A stretch of DNA of 64,000 nt from an uncultured Alphaproteobacteria bacterium (GTDB taxonomy: Bacteria; Pseudomonadota; Alphaproteobacteria; RF32; CAG-239): assembly GCA_944391405.1 (NCBI GenBank), contig CALXTN010000001.1:68503-132502 (forward strand), written 5' to 3'. How positions within the stretch are numbered: the first letter of the stretch is position 1; each line of letters starts with the position of its first letter. Below the pieces are notes generated by a model, which saw only the letters and a program-made list of their open reading frames with translations, did no database searches and was not told the origin of the DNA. This document shows, piece by piece, positions 28,776-60,202 of this stretch. Both the position numbers and the translations under genes were made by a program.

Positions 28776-29773
28776 TTATTTTTGCCTATCCTAAATTGTT
28801 TTTATTACTTCTGCTTCCTTTGTTGTTTTTTGTAATTGTTCCACCACAAAAACAACAATTTGGCGATGCTTTGAAAATTCCATTTTTGAATGATTTGAAA
28901 GCCATTAAAGAAAATGCTTCGCATTCCAGATTTCAAATAACAAATAAATCTTTTGCCTCCTTTTTGAAATTTGTATATTTATTTCTTATTTGGTCCTTGT
29001 TAACCATTGCTGTTGCTCGCCCTCAATTAGCGGGGGAACCATATCGTCTTAATGCAAATAACCGTGACATTATGTTGGTCATAGATATTTCTACATCTAT
29101 GCTTAATCCTGATTTTTCAACACAAACTCGACGTATTGATCGTTTATCTGCCGTAAAGGCTGTTGTGAGTGCTTTTATTCAAAAACGAACGGATGATAAA
29201 ATTGGACTTGTTCTTTTTGGAACCAGAGCTTATCTGCAATCTCCTTTAACTTTTGATAGAAAGTCTGTACAAGAAATTCTCCTAAATACAGATGCAGGAA
29301 TGGCCGGACAATCTACTTCTATCGGTGATGCATTGGGGTTAGCCCTAAAAAATCTGCGAAAAGAAAAAAATAAAGAGAATAAAGTAATCATTCTTCTTTC
29401 TGATGGAGAAAGCAATGATGGTGCTCTTAGCATGGCTCAGGCTATTAATTTGGCTGAAAAAGAAGGGATTAAAATCTATACTGTCGGCGTCGGCGCTGAA
29501 GCTAATTTTATTAATTCTTTATTTGGTTTAAGAAATAATGAATTAGATGAGAGAAGCTTAAAAACTCTTGCTCAACGAACTAAAGGTAATTATTTTAGAG
29601 CGACAGATTTAAATTCTTTAGCTGAAATTTATGATCGTATTGATGCACTTGAACCAGAGCAAACCGAGGGAACTTTTGTTCAAGATAAAACTGATTTATT
29701 TTATATTCCATTATTGTCTGCTCTTGTTTTAGTTTTCTTTGGACTCTTCTTTTCTAGGAGTTTCGTAAAATGA
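28772..29773 (+). CDS. BatA-like VWA-domain membrane protein
   Basis: I place the start at the ATG at 28772, which has GGAGG 6-10 bases upstream, rather than an earlier in-frame start. The 333-residue protein has two N-terminal helices (about 5-22 and 62-82), a von Willebrand factor A domain (about 98-290) and a C-terminal helix (about 308-326). The MIDAS motif DISTS is intact (Asp105, Ser107, Ser109), as are LLSDGESNDG and the PLTFDRKSV loop. BatA proteins are proposed to bind metal-dependent partners in the periplasm. The stop overlaps the next start by 4 bases. Confidence 0.9.
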   Translation: MIIFAYPKLFLLLLLPLLFFVIVPPQKQQFGDALKIPFLNDLKAIKENASHSRFQITNKSFASFLKFVYLFLIWSLLTIAVARPQLAGEPYRLNANNRDIMLVIDISTSMLNPDFSTQTRRIDRLSAVKAVVSAFIQKRTDDKIGLVLFGTRAYLQSPLTFDRKSVQEILLNTDAGMAGQSTSIGDALGLALKNLRKEKNKENKVIILLSDGESNDGALSMAQAINLAEKEGIKIYTVGVGAEANFINSLFGLRNNELDERSLKTLAQRTKGNYFRATDLNSLAEIYDRIDALEPEQTEGTFVQDKTDLFYIPLLSALVLVFFGLFFSRSFVK

Positions 29774-49760: not shown

Positions 49761-50651
49761 TTAATTATTTTTATTTCTTTCCAGTATTTCTAAAATCTGA
49801 TTCAACTCTGATGGATTTTTATATTCTATAGTAACTTTACCTTTATCATTTTCACCGGCATTGATTTTTACTTTCATTCCAATATTTCTTGATAAATCTT
49901 TTTCAAGTTCTTTTAAGCTAGGATCTTTTTTAATACTTTTACTAATTTGTGTTAGAGCATTATTTTTTATCTTATTTACTAAATCCTCTGTCTGACGAAC
50001 TGTTAATCCTTTTTCTACAATCTTTTTAGCAATTTCTTCCGCGTTATCTAAGCCAATTAAGGCTCTAGCATGCCCGGCACTCAAAACATTATTTTTTATC
50101 ATTTCTTGAATTGATGCAGGTAAGCTTAATAATCTTAATGTATTTGTGATATAGCTTCTAGATTTTCCAACTATTTGCGATAAAGCCTCATGCGTATGCG
50201 AAAACTCATTTATCAAACGATTAAATCCTTCAGCCTCTTCTATCGCTGTTAAATTTTCACGTAGCAAGTTTTCTATCAAGGCAACCTCAAGAACTTCTTG
50301 ATTATCTAATTCTTTTTCAATTACAGGAACTTCGTTTAAGCCTGCAATTTTAGAGGCTCTCCATCGACGCTCTCCAGCAATAATCTCGTATTTTTCTCCA
50401 TTTTTTCTAACTAAAAGTGGTTGTAAAACCCCCTTTTCTTTAATTGAATTAACAAGAGCATCTAAAGCTTCTTGATTAAATTCTTTACGAGGCTGATATT
50501 TACTAGGCTCGAGATATTCAACCTTTACCGTTTTTATTCCTGTTTCAGATATGTCTCCAGTATTAATGCTATCCAGATTAAAGCTCAAATCATCTTCACC
50601 TAAAAGAGCTTCTAACCCTCTACCTAATCCATGCTTTTTATTCATTGACAT
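49761..50651 (-). CDS. parB: Chromosome partitioning protein ParB (CTPase)
   Basis: The 296-residue protein has the N-terminal GRGLEALLGE motif, the CTP-binding core with EPSKYQPRKEF and AGERRWRASKIAG, the HTH LSQIVGKSRSYITNTLRLLSLP and a C-terminal dimerisation helix. ParB binds parS, spreads as a CTP-dependent clamp and interacts with ParA. Three parS-like sites lie 1.3-3.9 kb away. A GGAG site precedes the first ATG; a second ATG two codons in is also possible. It starts 2 bases after parA. Confidence 0.97.
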   Translation of the reverse strand: MSMNKKHGLGRGLEALLGEDDLSFNLDSINTGDISETGIKTVKVEYLEPSKYQPRKEFNQEALDALVNSIKEKGVLQPLLVRKNGEKYEIIAGERRWRASKIAGLNEVPVIEKELDNQEVLEVALIENLLRENLTAIEEAEGFNRLINEFSHTHEALSQIVGKSRSYITNTLRLLSLPASIQEMIKNNVLSAGHARALIGLDNAEEIAKKIVEKGLTVRQTEDLVNKIKNNALTQISKSIKKDPSLKELEKDLSRNIGMKVKINAGENDKGKVTIEYKNPSELNQILEILERNKNN

Positions 50652-50653
50652 AT

Positions 50654-51424
50654 CTATATCTCCTTTTCTCTTTTTAAAACTTCTTTAGCTAAATTTAAAT
50701 AAGCTTTTGCCCCACTACTCTTAAAATCATAAATTAATACAGGTTGCCCATGCGATGGAGCTTCTGAAATTCGAACGCTTCTAGGTATAACTGTTTTATA
50801 AACCTTTGTACCAAAATATTTTCTTACATCTGTTTCTACCATTTGACTCAGATTATTTCTTTTATCAAACATGGTTAAAACAATTCCTTGCAAATCTAAT
50901 TTTGAGTTAAAATTCTTTTTGATGATATTAATATTTTTGATTAAATCAGTTAAACCTTCAAGTGCTAAAAATTCACTTTGCAAAGGAACTATTACGGAAT
51001 CTGAAGAGACCAATGCGTTTATTGTAATTAAATTTAATGAAGGAGGACAATCTATTAAAATATAATCATATTTACCACTCAACACATTCAGCGCATTTTT
51101 TAATACGTATTCTCTTCTGTTTACATCTATCAATTCTATTTCTGCAGCAGCTAATGCTGGAGCTGATGGCAAAATATCAAATTTCTTTATATCCGTTTTT
51201 ACAATAGCATCTTCAGCTTTGCAATTATTTATCATTAAATCATATGTTGAAAATAGGCATTTATTTTTGTTGATACCTAATGATGTTGTTGCATTACCTT
51301 GTGGATCCATATCCAAAATAAGCACACGCTTTCCGATAGCAGCCATTGCAGTAGCTATGTTTACAGCGGTTGTTGTTTTACCAACGCCACCTTTACGATT
51401 GGCTATAGATATAATTTTTACCAT
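50654..51424 (-). CDS. parA: Chromosome partitioning ATPase ParA
   Basis: The 256-residue ATPase has the deviant Walker A KGGVGKTTTAVN near residue 11, Walker A' ILDMDPQGNAT, Walker B YDYILIDCPPSL and the C-terminal VRISEAPSHGQPV signature of Soj/ParA. Together with ParB and parS it moves newly replicated origins. It overlaps rsmG by one base (TAATG) and precedes parB by 2 bases, the usual rsmG-parA-parB order near oriC. Confidence 0.97.
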   Translation of the reverse strand: MVKIISIANRKGGVGKTTTAVNIATAMAAIGKRVLILDMDPQGNATTSLGINKNKCLFSTYDLMINNCKAEDAIVKTDIKKFDILPSAPALAAAEIELIDVNRREYVLKNALNVLSGKYDYILIDCPPSLNLITINALVSSDSVIVPLQSEFLALEGLTDLIKNINIIKKNFNSKLDLQGIVLTMFDKRNNLSQMVETDVRKYFGTKVYKTVIPRSVRISEAPSHGQPVLIYDFKSSGAKAYLNLAKEVLKREKEI

Positions 51425-52041
51425 TACAATTTTCTCCTTAAATCGCTTATGCGTAAAATTTTTCCTACATCACTGGTATCACTATTGTAAATTTCATATT
51501 TATATAACCATTTTGTTAGAGCTTCATCATTTTCTAAATACCAATTTTCTCCTTTGGGTAAAATCAATCTTGTTTCTTTTTTGCAAAATGGTTTAGCATA
51601 ATCTAAAAGTTTAGGAAGAGCAGCTAATGCTCTTGATGTAATCACATCAACTTTTCCAATATTTAATTTTTCGATTCTTTCTTGATGTATTTCCATATTT
51701 AACTTTAGTTGTTCGTTTACAGCATGCAAAAATGTTATTTTTTTACCAACACTTTCAACCAAATTTATTTGCAGATCAGGATAATTTTTTTGACATGCTA
51801 TAGCTAAAACAACACCAGGAAAACCTGCACCAGAACCTAAATCCAATAATATTTTATCTTCATTTGTTATATATTTAATTAGCTGCAACGAATCAACAAT
51901 ATGACGTTCCCAGATTATTGTTTCTGTTGATTTGCTTATTAAATTAAATTTACTATTCCACTCCAAAACTAGAGCTTGATAGTTTTTTAATTTTTCATAT
52001 GTTTCATGTGAAACATTATATTTTTTCTCTATATCAATCAT
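51424..52041 (-). CDS. rsmG: 16S rRNA 7-methylguanosine methyltransferase
   Basis: The 205-residue protein (GidB) has a SAM-binding Rossmann fold with LLDLGSGAGFPGVVLAI, VESVGKKITFLH, and ALAALPKLLDYAKPF. It methylates G527 of 16S rRNA. A parS-like 16-mer lies at its 5' end, encoding VSHET (residues 9-13). The start has only a GAGT site. A 130-bp gap with a strong inverted repeat separates it from mnmG. Confidence 0.95.
   Translation of the reverse strand: MIDIEKKYNVSHETYEKLKNYQALVLEWNSKFNLISKSTETIIWERHIVDSLQLIKYITNEDKILLDLGSGAGFPGVVLAIACQKNYPDLQINLVESVGKKITFLHAVNEQLKLNMEIHQERIEKLNIGKVDVITSRALAALPKLLDYAKPFCKKETRLILPKGENWYLENDEALTKWLYKYEIYNSDTSDVGKILRISDLRRKL
52000..52015. promoter_or_regulatory. 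parS-like site inside rsmG
   Basis: TGTTTCATGTGAAACA differs from the consensus parS TGTTTCACGTGAAACA by one central base. In the sense of rsmG it reads TGTTTCACATGAAACA, identical to the site in the orphan gene at 54549. It lies about 0.6 kb upstream of parA on the same strand. Confidence 0.85.
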
Positions 52042-52171: not shown

Positions 52172-54019
52172 TTAATTGTTTTTCATATAACCCAAGATTG
52201 CCATAATTGCAGCGGGTGTAACACCAGATATACGAGAAGCTTCACCTATTGTTTCCGGACGAACTTTATCGAGTTTACTAACCATTTCTCTAGATAACCC
52301 TCCAATTTTGGTATAATCAATATCTTTTCTTATTTTTATTCCTTCATCTTTTTTGAATACTTCAATATCATTATTTTGGCGTTTCATGTAGCCAGCATAT
52401 TTTGCCTCTATACATATTTGTTCAAAAACATCATCCGAAAGTTTTTCCAATTCAGGAAAAATTTCATTCACTGTTTCACGTGAAACACTGTCACAAGATA
52501 GCAAATTAAATATAGTTTTCTTACCACCTTCTTTCTTGATAGGGAGACTATATTTATCTATATCTTTCGATTGCAAATAAGTTTCTTTAACAAACCTTAT
52601 AGCATTACTAAGTTCTTCTTTTTTTCTTTTAAATACACCGTATCTATTTTCACTAACACAACCAACTTGATGCCCTTTTTCTGTTAAGCGTAAATCAGCA
52701 TTATCTGCCCTTAAATACAATCTATATTCAGAACGAGAAGTGAACATACGGTATGGTTCATCAACACCTTTAGTAATCAGATCATCAATCATTACCCCCA
52801 TATACCCCTCACTTCTGTCTACAACAAATTCAGCTCCTTTATTTAAAGCATTCAAAGCAGCATTGATTCCAGCAATTACACCTTGCGCGCCAGCCTCCTC
52901 ATAACCAGTTGTTCCGTTAATTTGTCCAGCTAAATACAACCCATCTAATTTTTTTACTTTCAGACAATGATTCAACTCTAAAGGATCAACATAATCATAT
53001 TCAATTGCATAGGCATATCTGGTTATTTTCACATTTTCCAGCCCTTTTATAGTATGAATAAATTCTTCTTGAACATCAGCAGGAAGAGATGTTGAAATAC
53101 CATTCGGATAGACAATATTTGTATTATATCCCTCAGGTTCCAAGAATATTTGATGACTTGTTCTATCAGCAAACTTTACTAATTTATCTTCAATACTTGG
53201 ACAATATCTTGGACCCACTCCTGTTATCAAACCAGAAAATAGTGCACATTTAGAAAAATTATCACGAATAATTTTGTGTGTTTTTTCATTTGTTGACGTT
53301 ATATAACACTCTATTTGAGGTTGTTCAATTTTTTCTGTTAAAAAAGAAAACGGCGTCGGATTTTCATCACCATTTTGTGTATCCAAAACACTCCAATTAA
53401 TAGTATTACCATCCAATCTTGCAGGAGTTCCTGTTTTCAACCTTCCAACCTTAAGTCCAGCCGCTTTTAAATACGCTGTTATTCCCTTACAACTTACATC
53501 ATTTACACGTCCACCAATTGATGTTTGATGTCCTGTAAACATAACACCATTAAGAAAAGTACCTGTTGTCAAAACAACAGATTCAGCGTAAAAACAATCT
53601 CCGGATTCAAGTTTAACACCTTTAATAACCTTATCTTCAATTATAAGATACTCAACAGCGCCTTCAATTATATCTAAATTTTCTTGTTCACTTAAAGCTT
53701 TTTGCATAAATTTTTTATATAAATCTCTGTCTGCCTGCGCTCTAGGGCCTCTTACCGCAGGCCCTTTTGATGAATTAAGTAAACGAAATTGTATACCGGC
53801 TTTATCTATTACCCGCCCCATCAAACCATCTAGAGCATCAATCTCTCTAACAAGATGCCCCTTTCCTAATCCTCCAATAGCAGGATTACAGGACATTTCG
53901 CCTATTGTCGCTATTTTATGCGTTATTAATGCAGTTTTTGCTCCCATTCTCGCCGCTGATGCACACGCTTCACATCCAGCATGCCCTCCACCTATAACTA
54001 ACACATCATACTTATTCAT
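52172..54019 (-). CDS. mnmG: tRNA uridine-5-carboxymethylaminomethyl modification enzyme MnmG
   Basis: The 615-residue FAD enzyme (GidA) has the dinucleotide-binding GGGHAGCEA at 10-18, the motifs GLKVGRLKTGTPARL and AGQINGTTGYEEAGAQG, and C-terminal helical domain. With MnmE it modifies uridine 34 of certain tRNAs. A perfect parS lies within it. mnmE, normally its partner, is 1.5 kb away, separated by the orphan plus-strand gene. The start has only a weak GGAT site. Confidence 0.97.
   Translation of the reverse strand: MNKYDVLVIGGGHAGCEACASAARMGAKTALITHKIATIGEMSCNPAIGGLGKGHLVREIDALDGLMGRVIDKAGIQFRLLNSSKGPAVRGPRAQADRDLYKKFMQKALSEQENLDIIEGAVEYLIIEDKVIKGVKLESGDCFYAESVVLTTGTFLNGVMFTGHQTSIGGRVNDVSCKGITAYLKAAGLKVGRLKTGTPARLDGNTINWSVLDTQNGDENPTPFSFLTEKIEQPQIECYITSTNEKTHKIIRDNFSKCALFSGLITGVGPRYCPSIEDKLVKFADRTSHQIFLEPEGYNTNIVYPNGISTSLPADVQEEFIHTIKGLENVKITRYAYAIEYDYVDPLELNHCLKVKKLDGLYLAGQINGTTGYEEAGAQGVIAGINAALNALNKGAEFVVDRSEGYMGVMIDDLITKGVDEPYRMFTSRSEYRLYLRADNADLRLTEKGHQVGCVSENRYGVFKRKKEELSNAIRFVKETYLQSKDIDKYSLPIKKEGGKKTIFNLLSCDSVSRETVNEIFPELEKLSDDVFEQICIEAKYAGYMKRQNNDIEVFKKDEGIKIRKDIDYTKIGGLSREMVSKLDKVRPETIGEASRISGVTPAAIMAILGYMKNN
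52472..52487. promoter_or_regulatory. Perfect parS site inside mnmG
   Basis: TGTTTCACGTGAAACA is an exact match to the consensus parS palindrome recognised by ParB. In mnmG it encodes VSRET. The centre is 1.8 kb from the parB start and 5.9-6.4 kb from the candidate origin. Confidence 0.97.
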
Positions 54020-54189: not shown

Positions 54190-55536
54190 ATGAATTATAA
54201 TATAGAAACTTTAACTTCAAAAAAATATCTAATTATAAAAAATATACTAAATAATTCTTTTGATAAAAAAATCTTTAATAAATTAGATACACTTGTTTTA
54301 TCAAAATGCTTTGATAATGCATATGAATATTCTATAATGGAAAATATAGAGCGAATCAATTGCGATGACTTATCAAGTCATGACATCTTAAATATATTAG
54401 AAAATTTTATATATTCCGTTCAATATAAAACGATATTAAATGGTAGAGAATTGTTTGAATTAGTTAAATTATCATTATTACCAACAAAGAAACTTAATAA
54501 AGTTATTTCCAGTGATTTATACTTAAAAATAGCATCATATTTAAAATATGTTTCACATGAAACAAAGCTAATTAGTTTTGACTTTTTAATTTTAAGAATT
54601 GTTGATAATTTTTTATTAAAAGTTAATAATATCAACAATAAAAATTTATCTGAATTTTATTTAGCGTTAAAAAATTCTATATATGAAAAAATGATTTCTT
54701 TTTCTTATATCAATGAAATAAAAGAAAAAGAAGCAACTATGTTGTGTTGGGTTGATATGCTTTTATCTGCTGTTATAAAAAAAGAAATAGATATTTCATC
54801 ATTTATTTTAATTACAAAAAAAATTTTAATAATAACTCAAAATTCTTTATATCTTCTTTGGAAATTGGCGAATTCTATAAATTATATTTTATCACAGAAC
54901 GATTTTTTAGATTTATCTAGCTTAAAAGAATATAAAAAAATATTAGAAAAACAAATAGAAAATAGATATACTTATGCAAATATTTCTACTAATGAATTGC
55001 AAAATATTATGATTAATCTTCTTGCAAATCAGAACATTGTAAAAGATGATTATTATTATTTTTTTGATGCGTTGAGTTCAATAGCTACGCAATCTGAAAA
55101 AAATAAATTCTTTTGTATTCAATTATGCGAATATATTGTCTATTATAATAATAAAAAGCGCATATTTTCTTATAGATTTATTCGCAAATATTTTATAGAC
55201 ATTATTCTTAAATTATTTAATAAAAATGATATAATACAGATAAAAATCAAAGAGCTCAATTTACTAATCAATCTATGGTTTAATGATATCTTTTTTTGTT
55301 TTGAAAAAAAAAGAATTTTACAAGGTATTTTAAATATATTAAAATCTATAAATTCAAAAACTTTTAAATTAAATCATAATAATTTTTACAAATATTGTGA
55401 AGCATTAGACTATATGCTTGCCTCAGATTCCGATTATAATATAACAGATATTATTGATTTTTTAGCTTTTGATAATGGTAATAAAAGTAGAATATCTAAG
55501 CATTTCAAACTGCATCAATCAATTTCTTCATTTTAA
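54190..55536 (+). CDS. Orphan 448-residue protein of unknown function, very AT-rich
   Basis: A continuous plus-strand reading frame of 449 codons lies between mnmG and mnmE, both on the minus strand. The product is rich in Lys, Asn, Ile, Leu and Tyr, predicted mainly helical, without signal peptide, membrane helix or any motif I recognise. G+C is clearly lower than in flanking genes. A TAGGTG site is 7 bases before the ATG. The length of the frame in AT-rich DNA and the protein's normal hydrophobic pattern make a real gene likely. It carries a parS-like site encoding VSHET near residue 121. Whether it is expressed or related to segregation is unknown. Confidence 0.75.
   Translation: MNYNIETLTSKKYLIIKNILNNSFDKKIFNKLDTLVLSKCFDNAYEYSIMENIERINCDDLSSHDILNILENFIYSVQYKTILNGRELFELVKLSLLPTKKLNKVISSDLYLKIASYLKYVSHETKLISFDFLILRIVDNFLLKVNNINNKNLSEFYLALKNSIYEKMISFSYINEIKEKEATMLCWVDMLLSAVIKKEIDISSFILITKKILIITQNSLYLLWKLANSINYILSQNDFLDLSSLKEYKKILEKQIENRYTYANISTNELQNIMINLLANQNIVKDDYYYFFDALSSIATQSEKNKFFCIQLCEYIVYYNNKKRIFSYRFIRKYFIDIILKLFNKNDIIQIKIKELNLLINLWFNDIFFCFEKKRILQGILNILKSINSKTFKLNHNNFYKYCEALDYMLASDSDYNITDIIDFLAFDNGNKSRISKHFKLHQSISSF
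54549..54564. promoter_or_regulatory. parS-like site inside the orphan gene
   Basis: TGTTTCACATGAAACA differs from consensus parS by one central base. It encodes VSHET in the orphan frame. It lies about 3.8 kb from the candidate oriC and 2.1 kb from the perfect site. Confidence 0.85.
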
Positions 55537-57131: not shown

Positions 57132-58385
57132 TTAGCTATTCATATTATCAAAGAAATCTTTATTGTCTTTTGATTGACGCAACTTATCGAGCAAAAATTC
57201 CATACCATCAGTCATTCCCATTTGCATCAAGACGCGACGCAGTACCCACATTTTAGTAAGTGTTGCTTTATCAACTAGCAATTCTTCTTTTCTGGTTCCT
57301 GAGCGTGTTATATCGATAGTTGGGAATAAACGTTTATCTGTTAATTTTCTATCCAAGATAATTTCAGAATTGCCAGTTCCTTTAAATTCTTCAAAGATAA
57401 CTTCATCCATTCTTGAACCAGTATCAATTAAAGCTGTTGCTATAATAGTTAAAGATCCCCCTTCTTCCACATTGCGGGCGGCACCTAAAAGCCTTTTTGG
57501 ACGTTGTAAAGCATTAGCATCGACACCACCAGTTAATACTTTTCCAGATGATGGTAAAACTGTATTATATGCACGTCCAAGTCTGGTTATAGAATCCAAT
57601 AAAATTACGACGTCTTTTTTAGTTTCTACAAGACGTTTAGCCTTTTCTATAACCATTTCAGCAACTTGTACGTGACGAGCAGCTGGTTCATCAAAGGTGG
57701 ATGATATAACTTCACCTTTTACAGAACGTGTCATATCTGTTACTTCTTCCGGACGTTCATCAATTAATAAAACTATTAAGTAAATTTCCGGATGATTTAC
57801 AGCTATCGCATGCGCAATATTTTGCAACATAACGGTTTTACCTGTTCTTGGAGGAGCAACTATCAATCCACGTTGTCCCTTCCCCTGAGGTGAAATTAAA
57901 TCTATAACTCTTGTTGTATAATCTTTTTCACCGCAAATAATATCAAAATTTAATTTTTCTGTTGGATACAAAGGGGTTAAATTATCGAAATTTATGCGCA
58001 ATTTAGACTTTTCAGGATCATCATAGTTAATTGTATTTATTTTTGTTAGCGCAAAGTATCTTTCATTTTCTTTTGGTGCTCTAATTTCACCTTCAACAGT
58101 ATCTCCTGTTCTTAATCCGTATTTTTTAACTTGTTGAGGTGATACATATATGTCGTCTGCAGATGCTAAATAATTTGATTTTGATGAGCGTAAAAAACCA
58201 AAACCATCTTGCATTACTTCAATAACGCCATCGCCATATAAAATGTGATCATCTTCTGCAACTTTTTTCATGATGGCAAAAATTAAGTCTTGAACACGCA
58301 TTGATGAAGCGTCTTCAACTCCCAGCTCTTCAGCTTGGCTCAAGAGTTGTTTGGGAGATTTATCCTTTAAATCTTTTAAATGCAT
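57132..58385 (-). CDS. rho: Transcription termination factor Rho
   Basis: The 417-residue hexameric RNA helicase has the N-terminal helical domain (about 1-45), a cold-shock-like RNA-binding domain with [17 protein letters not shown], Walker A APPRTGKT (177-184), Walker [17 protein letters not shown], the Q-loop and the arginine finger near GTRKEELL. No ribosome-binding site is obvious before the ATG. Its promoter must lie in the adjacent gap that I propose as oriC. rho next to mnmE and near the origin is common in alphaproteobacteria. Confidence 0.97.
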
Positions 58386-58902
58386 GGATTAAACCTATTT
58401 GGTAAGAAATTTTTAAGAATTAAATGTTAGTTTCTTTATAAGTGATTTTTTTAAGATGTCAATTTAAAATGTTTTTTTGGATGTTTTGATTATTTTTAGC
58501 AAGAGGATTATTTTTTTAGGTGATACAGAAAAGTTATAAACAAGAAAAATTGCCAAACATTTATTTTTAAATAATTTTTTTGTTATTTGTTTATTCTTGT
58601 TAATTGTGTTGATAACTTTTTTGTAAACAGTTTTTTGCAGATTTTTTAGGTCTTGTTTAAAAGGTTGTGTAGGACTCCAAAAATTTGTTTTAAAATCAAA
58701 TTTTTGATTAAATCTGTTTTCTTGTGTATAAAAGATACTTATCAACATATTTCACAAGTAGGTATAATGGTCTAAAAAATGTTTATAACTTGGGTTTATT
58801 TTTTTGCTTAATGGTGATTATTTGTTAAATGTTTTTTAAACGTTATAGTTATGCACAGATGTTTTTCCATATGTGTATAAAAAAAGCTTTTTTGAGGAAA
58901 AA
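58386..58902. other. Candidate chromosomal replication origin (oriC)
   Basis: The 517-bp gap between divergent rho and coaE has no supportable gene and is extremely AT-rich. It holds five nonamers one base away from the DnaA box TTATCCACA: 58607-58615 (minus), 58723-58731 (minus), 58739-58747 (plus), 58849-58857 (plus) and 58872-58880 (minus). A TTAA-N7-TTAA element at 58825-58839 has the layout of a CtrA half-site pair. Position in the parAB-rsmG-mnmG-mnmE-rho / coaE-dnaQ block, nearby parS sites and divergent gene direction all point the same way. There is no hemE here. Confidence 0.65.
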
Positions 58903-59475
58903 ATGATTTTTGTAGCAATTACAGGCTCTATCGGATGTGGTAAAACAACAGTATCTAACCTTTTGCGAAATTTAGGCTATTTGGTGTATGACGCTGATAA
59001 ATGGGTTAGGGTTTTGTATTTAAAAAAAGATTTTTTGAGGGAAATTCAAAAATATTTTCCGCAAGTTTTTAAAAATAATGTTTTTGATAAAAAATTATTG
59101 CGTTCAATTGTTTTTAAGAATCCTCAACAATTGAAAATTCTAGAGAATTTAATTCATCCTTTTTTGACACAGAGATTGAAACAAATTCTTAGATATCGTC
59201 GTAATGAGGGAATCGTTTTTTTTGAAGCTCCATTGTTGTTTGAATTGGGATGGGATAAGTTTTTTGATTATGTTATTGTAACAGATGTTGCTTATGATAT
59301 TCAAAAAGAACGAGTTATGAAACGTGATAAAATTTCTGAAGAGGAATTTGTTCGTATTAATGCTTTACAAATGCCTCGATGTGACAAAATTTGTCGTGCG
59401 GATATAGTGATTGATACAGGTGTGGATTTGGATAAGTTAAGAAGAAATATTGTACTGATGTTGGGAGTTTTTTGA
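58903..59475 (+). CDS. coaE: Dephospho-CoA kinase
   Basis: The ATG at 58903 follows GAGGA; the frame is open upstream into the candidate origin but lacks such a site there. The 190-residue kinase has the P-loop GSIGCGKTT (8-16), YDADKWVR, HPFLTQRL and the substrate lid EAPLLFELGWDKFFD. It makes CoA from dephospho-CoA. It lies 1 base before dnaQ, a pair often found next to oriC in alphaproteobacteria. Confidence 0.95.
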   Translation: MIFVAITGSIGCGKTTVSNLLRNLGYLVYDADKWVRVLYLKKDFLREIQKYFPQVFKNNVFDKKLLRSIVFKNPQQLKILENLIHPFLTQRLKQILRYRRNEGIVFFEAPLLFELGWDKFFDYVIVTDVAYDIQKERVMKRDKISEEEFVRINALQMPRCDKICRADIVIDTGVDLDKLRRNIVLMLGVF

Positions 59476-59476
59476 T

Positions 59477-60202
59477 ATGCAAGGTATTCGTGAAATTGTT
59501 TTTGATACGGAAACGACTGGATTTGATCCTGAAACAGGAGATAAATTAGTTGAAATTGGTGCTGTTGAACTTATTAATCATGTTCCAACCGGAAGAACAT
59601 ATCATCAATATATAAACCCAGAAAGAGAAGTACCTGAAGAAGTTGTTAAAGTCCATGGGTTAACGACGGAATATTTAAAAGATTTTCCAAATTTTGCAGC
59701 GGTTGCTCAGGATTTTATCGATTTTGTCGGTGATGATGGTATTTTGGTGGCGCATAATGCAACATTTGATATGAAGTTTATTAATTTCGAGCTTCGTCAT
59801 CTCGGATTTGAAGGATATAGCTGGGATAGAGTGATTGATACTTTGGAAATTGCAAAAAACAAATTTCCAGGGCAACGAAATAATTTGGATGTACTTTGCA
59901 AAAGATTTGGAATTGATAATTCAGCTAGAACATTTCATGGAGCTTTACTTGATGCTCAATTATTGGCAGAAGTGTATTTGGAATTACTGGGGGGAGCTGA
60001 ACCGTCAATGGAATTGGATGCTGTTCCTGTAGCTAGAAGAGAGCGACATGTAGAGGCAAAAGAAGTGCAGCGAGTTTATAGGGAACCGAGAAATTTTCCT
60101 TTAACAGAGGAGCAAATTGATTTGCATCGAGATTTTTTAACACAAAATATCAAAGATTCCCTTTGGCTTTCTGATGAAAAAAAAGAAGAGGCGGTTCAGT
60201 AA
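59477..60202 (+). CDS. dnaQ: DNA polymerase III epsilon subunit (proofreading 3'-5' exonuclease)
   Basis: The 241-residue protein has ExoI motif FDTETTGFD with Asp10 and Glu12, ExoII AHNATFDMKFIN, and ExoIII HGALLDAQLLAEVY. These are the metal-binding residues of DEDDh exonucleases. It proofreads during replication. The C-terminal tail from about 185, which would contact the polymerase alpha subunit, is Arg/Glu-rich. The stop overlaps the next start by one base. Confidence 0.96.
   Translation: MQGIREIVFDTETTGFDPETGDKLVEIGAVELINHVPTGRTYHQYINPEREVPEEVVKVHGLTTEYLKDFPNFAAVAQDFIDFVGDDGILVAHNATFDMKFINFELRHLGFEGYSWDRVIDTLEIAKNKFPGQRNNLDVLCKRFGIDNSARTFHGALLDAQLLAEVYLELLGGAEPSMELDAVPVARRERHVEAKEVQRVYREPRNFPLTEEQIDLHRDFLTQNIKDSLWLSDEKKEEAVQ

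Follow-up and report, generated by a model that had tools for sequence, protein, structure and literature searches.

Where does chromosome replication begin in an alphaproteobacterium that lacks both genes beside which the origin is usually sought? The question is raised by a short gene-free interval in a 64,000-nucleotide stretch of DNA (the window) from an uncultured member of this class. An earlier note, made from the letters alone, had proposed a candidate oriC between rho and coaE. The proposal is very probably right. The DnaA boxes of the gap and their conservation, nearby parS sites, the GC skew of relatives and synteny with hemE-flanked origins all point to the rho-coaE gap as the chromosomal replication origin.

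The gap between rho and coaE

The 517-bp AT-rich gap described earlier has exactly the limits that were given, with 22% G+C (78% A+T), and it is directly bordered by two divergent genes.

58386..58902, no strand: candidate oriC, gene-free gap, 517 bp, 22% G+C
57132..58385, minus strand: rho (TIGR00767)
58903..59475, plus strand: coaE (TIGR00152)
59477..60202, plus strand: dnaQ (TIGR01406)

A 94-aa minus-strand reading frame within the gap (58464-58748) was rejected as a chance frame; it overlaps three of the boxes and contains many indels in the alignment of relatives. No RNA family was found in or near the gap.

DnaA boxes

All five single-mismatch DnaA boxes that had been counted within 274 bp were located in the gap, along with two weaker sites.

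58607..58615, minus strand: DnaA box TTATCAACA, one mismatch
58723..58731, minus strand: DnaA box TTATACACA, one mismatch
58739..58747, plus strand: DnaA box TTATCAACA, one mismatch
58849..58857, plus strand: DnaA box TTATGCACA, one mismatch
58872..58880, minus strand: DnaA box TTATACACA, one mismatch, facing the box at 58849 with 14 bp between
58534..58542, plus strand: weak DnaA-like site TTATAAACA
58780..58788, minus strand: weak DnaA-like site TTATAAACA

None of the five is a perfect TTATCCACA; the gap holds seven TTATNNACA sites. In 2000 dinucleotide-preserving shuffles of the gap sequence, the mean was 0.18 +/- 0.43 boxes and the maximum 3, and five or more boxes occurred in 0/2000. The motif TTATNCACA was observed three times, as opposed to 0.04 expected from the shuffles. 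The earlier note had regarded an equal box density in other AT-rich gaps as fatal to its claim, and the density of the rho-coaE gap proved far higher. It is the densest 300-bp stretch (5 boxes) in 132.5 kb of contig C1, where the runner-up has 3 and, this gap apart, intervals of 150 bp or longer have 0-1 box each. A maximum of 2 one-mismatch boxes per 300-bp stretch was found in 335 kb elsewhere in the genome, so that the one-mismatch scan covered 467 kb in all. The exact scan for TTATNCACA covered the whole 1.716-Mb assembly and returned 69 copies, and only in the gap do three of them lie within 160 bp. Within this scanned scope, the box cluster of the gap exceeds chance and is unique in the genome. 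Only one further close pair exists genome-wide, two TTATGCACA boxes 12 bp apart (G000 C35:8156-8176). DnaA itself, of 488 aa, is encoded on contig C4. A second DnaA-family ATPase of 245 aa (G000 C5:76834-77229) is probably an Hda-type regulator.

The boxes are also conserved in related genomes. The rho-coaE gap is present in 28 alignable relatives of the family or order, and conservation is stronger at the boxes than in 9-base windows drawn at random from the gap (genus, P = 0.0008; family and overall, P = 0.0001). The best conserved is box 58849, with at most one mismatch in 28/29 aligned sequences, followed by box 58607 (23/29, and 14/14 in the genus). Within the genus, boxes 58723 and 58739 are kept at this level in 11/14 and 9/14 sequences, respectively, the latter being otherwise mostly TTATNAACA. 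A facing pair of the 58849/58872 type, TTATNCACA-N12..16-TGTGNATAA, is found in 52 of the 101 genomes of the family, typically a single time, and the reversed control pattern in 0/101. All 30 facing-pair loci that were fetched lie just upstream of coaE; rho is on the other side in 29 of them, and the remaining contig is too short to show it.

Unwinding region and CtrA

The gap contains a candidate for the place where the strands would separate, as well as an element resembling a CtrA site.

58555..58606, no strand: candidate unwinding element, the richest A+T stretch, beside box 58607
58825..58839, no strand: TTAA-N7-TTAA, possible CtrA site

The stretch 58555-58604 is 90% A+T, and the core TTATTTGTTTAT of the block is conserved in the genus. 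The TTAA-N7-TTAA element reported earlier is present; the hint of CtrA control that it carried did not gain support. A single copy is within chance (P = 0.29), and the exact element is found only in the closest relatives and is not kept across the genus. For IHF, the consensus is too loose to be informative in DNA of 78% A+T. To count as a DnaA-trio array, three or more NAN trios had to follow one another on the proper strand, no farther than 16 bp from a DnaA box. No canonical array is evident in the window, and no run of three follows the conserved minus-strand box 58607. Runs of three do follow boxes 58739 and 58849, both on the plus strand; such runs are common in relatives, at varying places. 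It is conceivable, if rather doubtful, that the family's origin is opened through a lineage-specific block (a conserved TTATTTGTTTAT-N-CCTGT beside box 58607) instead of canonical DnaA-trios, and that it functions without CtrA sites despite the presence of CtrA and GcrA, both of which are encoded in the genome.

GC skew and partition sites

The earlier note had named a minimum of cumulative GC skew at the gap as a finding that would support its proposal. Two relatives have one at this locus. The contig that holds the window dips only locally there, to -457 at contig position 126,833 next to the gap; a lower point of -846 at 29,146 counts against an origin at the gap. The window's genome is in 68 contigs, and skew was computed for separate contigs and stretches. 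Contigs need not be ordered for such a comparison, because the origin switch, from minus to plus, has the same form in either contig orientation. The clearest case is G029, a genome of the same family and another genus in five contigs. Cumulative skew along its 391-kb contig forms a V with the minimum at 189,558; coaE starts at 194,229, which places the minimum 4.4 kb from the gap on the rho side. Samples of its other four contigs revealed no further minus-to-plus switch, which leaves the one at this locus as the only origin-type switch found in G029. Twenty samples of its 829-kb contig C2 contained one plus-to-minus switch at about 317-338 kb, the pattern expected of a terminus, and in each of the three small contigs all samples had the same skew sign. 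In G025 the minimum (47,098) is about 3 kb from coaE (49,938), again on the rho side. Contig C10 of G009 was left out as proof, as it contains 72 kb of N.

In G003 and G029, third-codon-position skew differs between the two sides of the gap in genes of both strands. Therefore, the skew does not come from gene orientation only, and replication lies behind it. In the window's genus, the rho-side arm is nearly unskewed or mixed (window positions 1-57000; contigs of G003, G011 and G000), and the coaE side is strongly skewed, with a third-position skew of about +0.4 in G003. The weak skew of the rho-side arm likewise counts against an origin at the gap. The two arms are far more even in G029, which belongs to another genus.

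The rho side also carries the partition genes and their sites.

49761..50651, minus strand: parB (TIGR00180)
50654..51424, minus strand: parA, a ParA-type ATPase below curated cut-offs that adjoins parB
52000..52015, no strand: parS, one mismatch
52472..52487, no strand: parS, perfect TGTTTCACGTGAAACA
54549..54564, no strand: parS, one mismatch

These three are the only near-perfect parS sites (0-1 mismatch) in the whole genome, and all lie 4-6.4 kb from the gap. A 448-aa plus-strand reading frame (54190-55536) between mnmG and mnmE is opposed to the direction of its neighbors. Its DNA is very A+T-rich (about 20% G+C), and it matches no NCBIfam model; its only Pfam match falls below the threshold.

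Alternative explanations

The gap could serve another function, with the origin elsewhere. Divergent genes need promoters in the gap, and it is established that DnaA boxes can regulate transcription, so a DnaA-controlled rho/coaE promoter region or a cluster that titrates DnaA is a reasonable thought. It is nevertheless very unlikely: the skew of relatives switches at the same locus, the genome's only near-perfect parS sites are close by, the scanned DNA holds no competing box cluster, and the same interval has the densest box cluster in most other hemE-bearing alphaproteobacterial loci. An origin in the neighborhood and outside the gap, for example nearer to parAB, is a slightly fainter prospect still. 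It would agree with the parS sites and the skew minima of G029 and G025 (4.4 and 3 kb), all of them on the rho side. However, a skew minimum locates an origin only to within some kilobases, the genes near the gap themselves point outwards, and the rho-side gaps of 246 bp and 170 bp are without a one-mismatch box. Five boxes that are each one base off the consensus in DNA of 22% G+C might also be a mere product of base composition, yet this has next to no probability given that none of the shuffles reached five boxes, that box positions are conserved over the family and that the reversed control pattern is absent from its 101 genomes.

Proposed course of initiation

With the rho-coaE gap as the replication origin, initiation can be envisaged as follows. 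DnaA would bind the facing pairs 58723 (minus)/58739 (plus) and 58849 (plus)/58872 (minus) and the inward-pointing minus-strand box 58607. Bound DnaA would form an oligomer, and the A+T-rich block that adjoins box 58607 would presumably melt. The helicase would be loaded at the melted block, and two forks would set out in opposite directions, one across rho and one across coaE. The new origins would be segregated by ParB at the parS sites, which lie 4-6.4 kb to the left.

Ancestral neighborhood and missing border genes

The neighborhood that the earlier note recognized as shared with known alphaproteobacterial origins is indeed present, with rho, mnmE, mnmG and parAB on one side and coaE and dnaQ on the other. 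Neither hemE nor COG1806 flanks the gap. Profile searches of the whole genome returned neither of them (PF01208 and PF03618), which extends to the genome the absence of hemE noted earlier. COG1806 was found in no family member searched, nor was hemE, apart from one weak partial match in a contaminated assembly. Fifty-seven other alphaproteobacterial loci contain rho as well as coaE. In 27 of them, dnaQ, coaE and COG1806 are followed by hemE and rho, the last two in the opposite orientation; COG1806 was mapped there with one sound query sequence. Where both border genes are present in these loci, the densest box cluster is usually in the COG1806-hemE gap. Because hemE and COG1806 are missing, the direct borders of the origin are now rho and coaE. 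The locus is almost certainly the usual alphaproteobacterial origin minus these two neighbors, and the simplest history is that both border genes were lost and the origin was left in place. The absence of hemE, taken by itself, suggests that the family is unable to make haem by the usual route.

Comparison with known origins

The Caulobacter crescentus origin, Cori, lies between hemE and COG1806, and the Rickettsia origin lies in the same interval (PMC1914354). The gap is very probably the same ancestral locus as these two. Like Cori, the gap is A+T-rich, has multiple TTATNCACA-type DnaA boxes and is flanked by parB, parA, rsmG, mnmG, mnmE and rho on one side and by coaE and dnaQ on the other (PMC1914354). 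Unlike Cori, it has rho and coaE as direct flanks in a genome without hemE and COG1806, and nothing in it clearly corresponds to Cori's five CtrA sites (PMC1914354). The origins predicted in silico for Rickettsia, Wolbachia, Anaplasma and Ehrlichia share with it the ancestral neighborhood, few CtrA sites and TTATNCACA boxes, but one of their borders is still hemE or COG1806 (PMC1914354); the predicted Wolbachia origin, for instance, is bordered by COG1253 and hemE (PMC1914354). The basal unwinding system of Bacillus subtilis is composed of DnaA boxes plus DnaA-trios (PMC8287927). The gap resembles it in having a DnaA box that adjoins an A+T-rich stretch that could melt, and at the aligned place the relative G029 has a GTAGTAGTAGGTAGTA run that can be compared with this system; in contrast to B. 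subtilis, the window does not have three middle-A trios after the conserved box 58607 (PMC8287927).

The gap provides a precise and conserved origin for a family met here only as draft genomes, and it can serve as an anchor for growth-rate estimates from metagenome coverage. The standard search rule is to look next to hemE or COG1806; it does not work in this lineage, even though the locus has stayed in place. In summary, the origin is of a known alphaproteobacterial kind from which the textbook border genes have gone.
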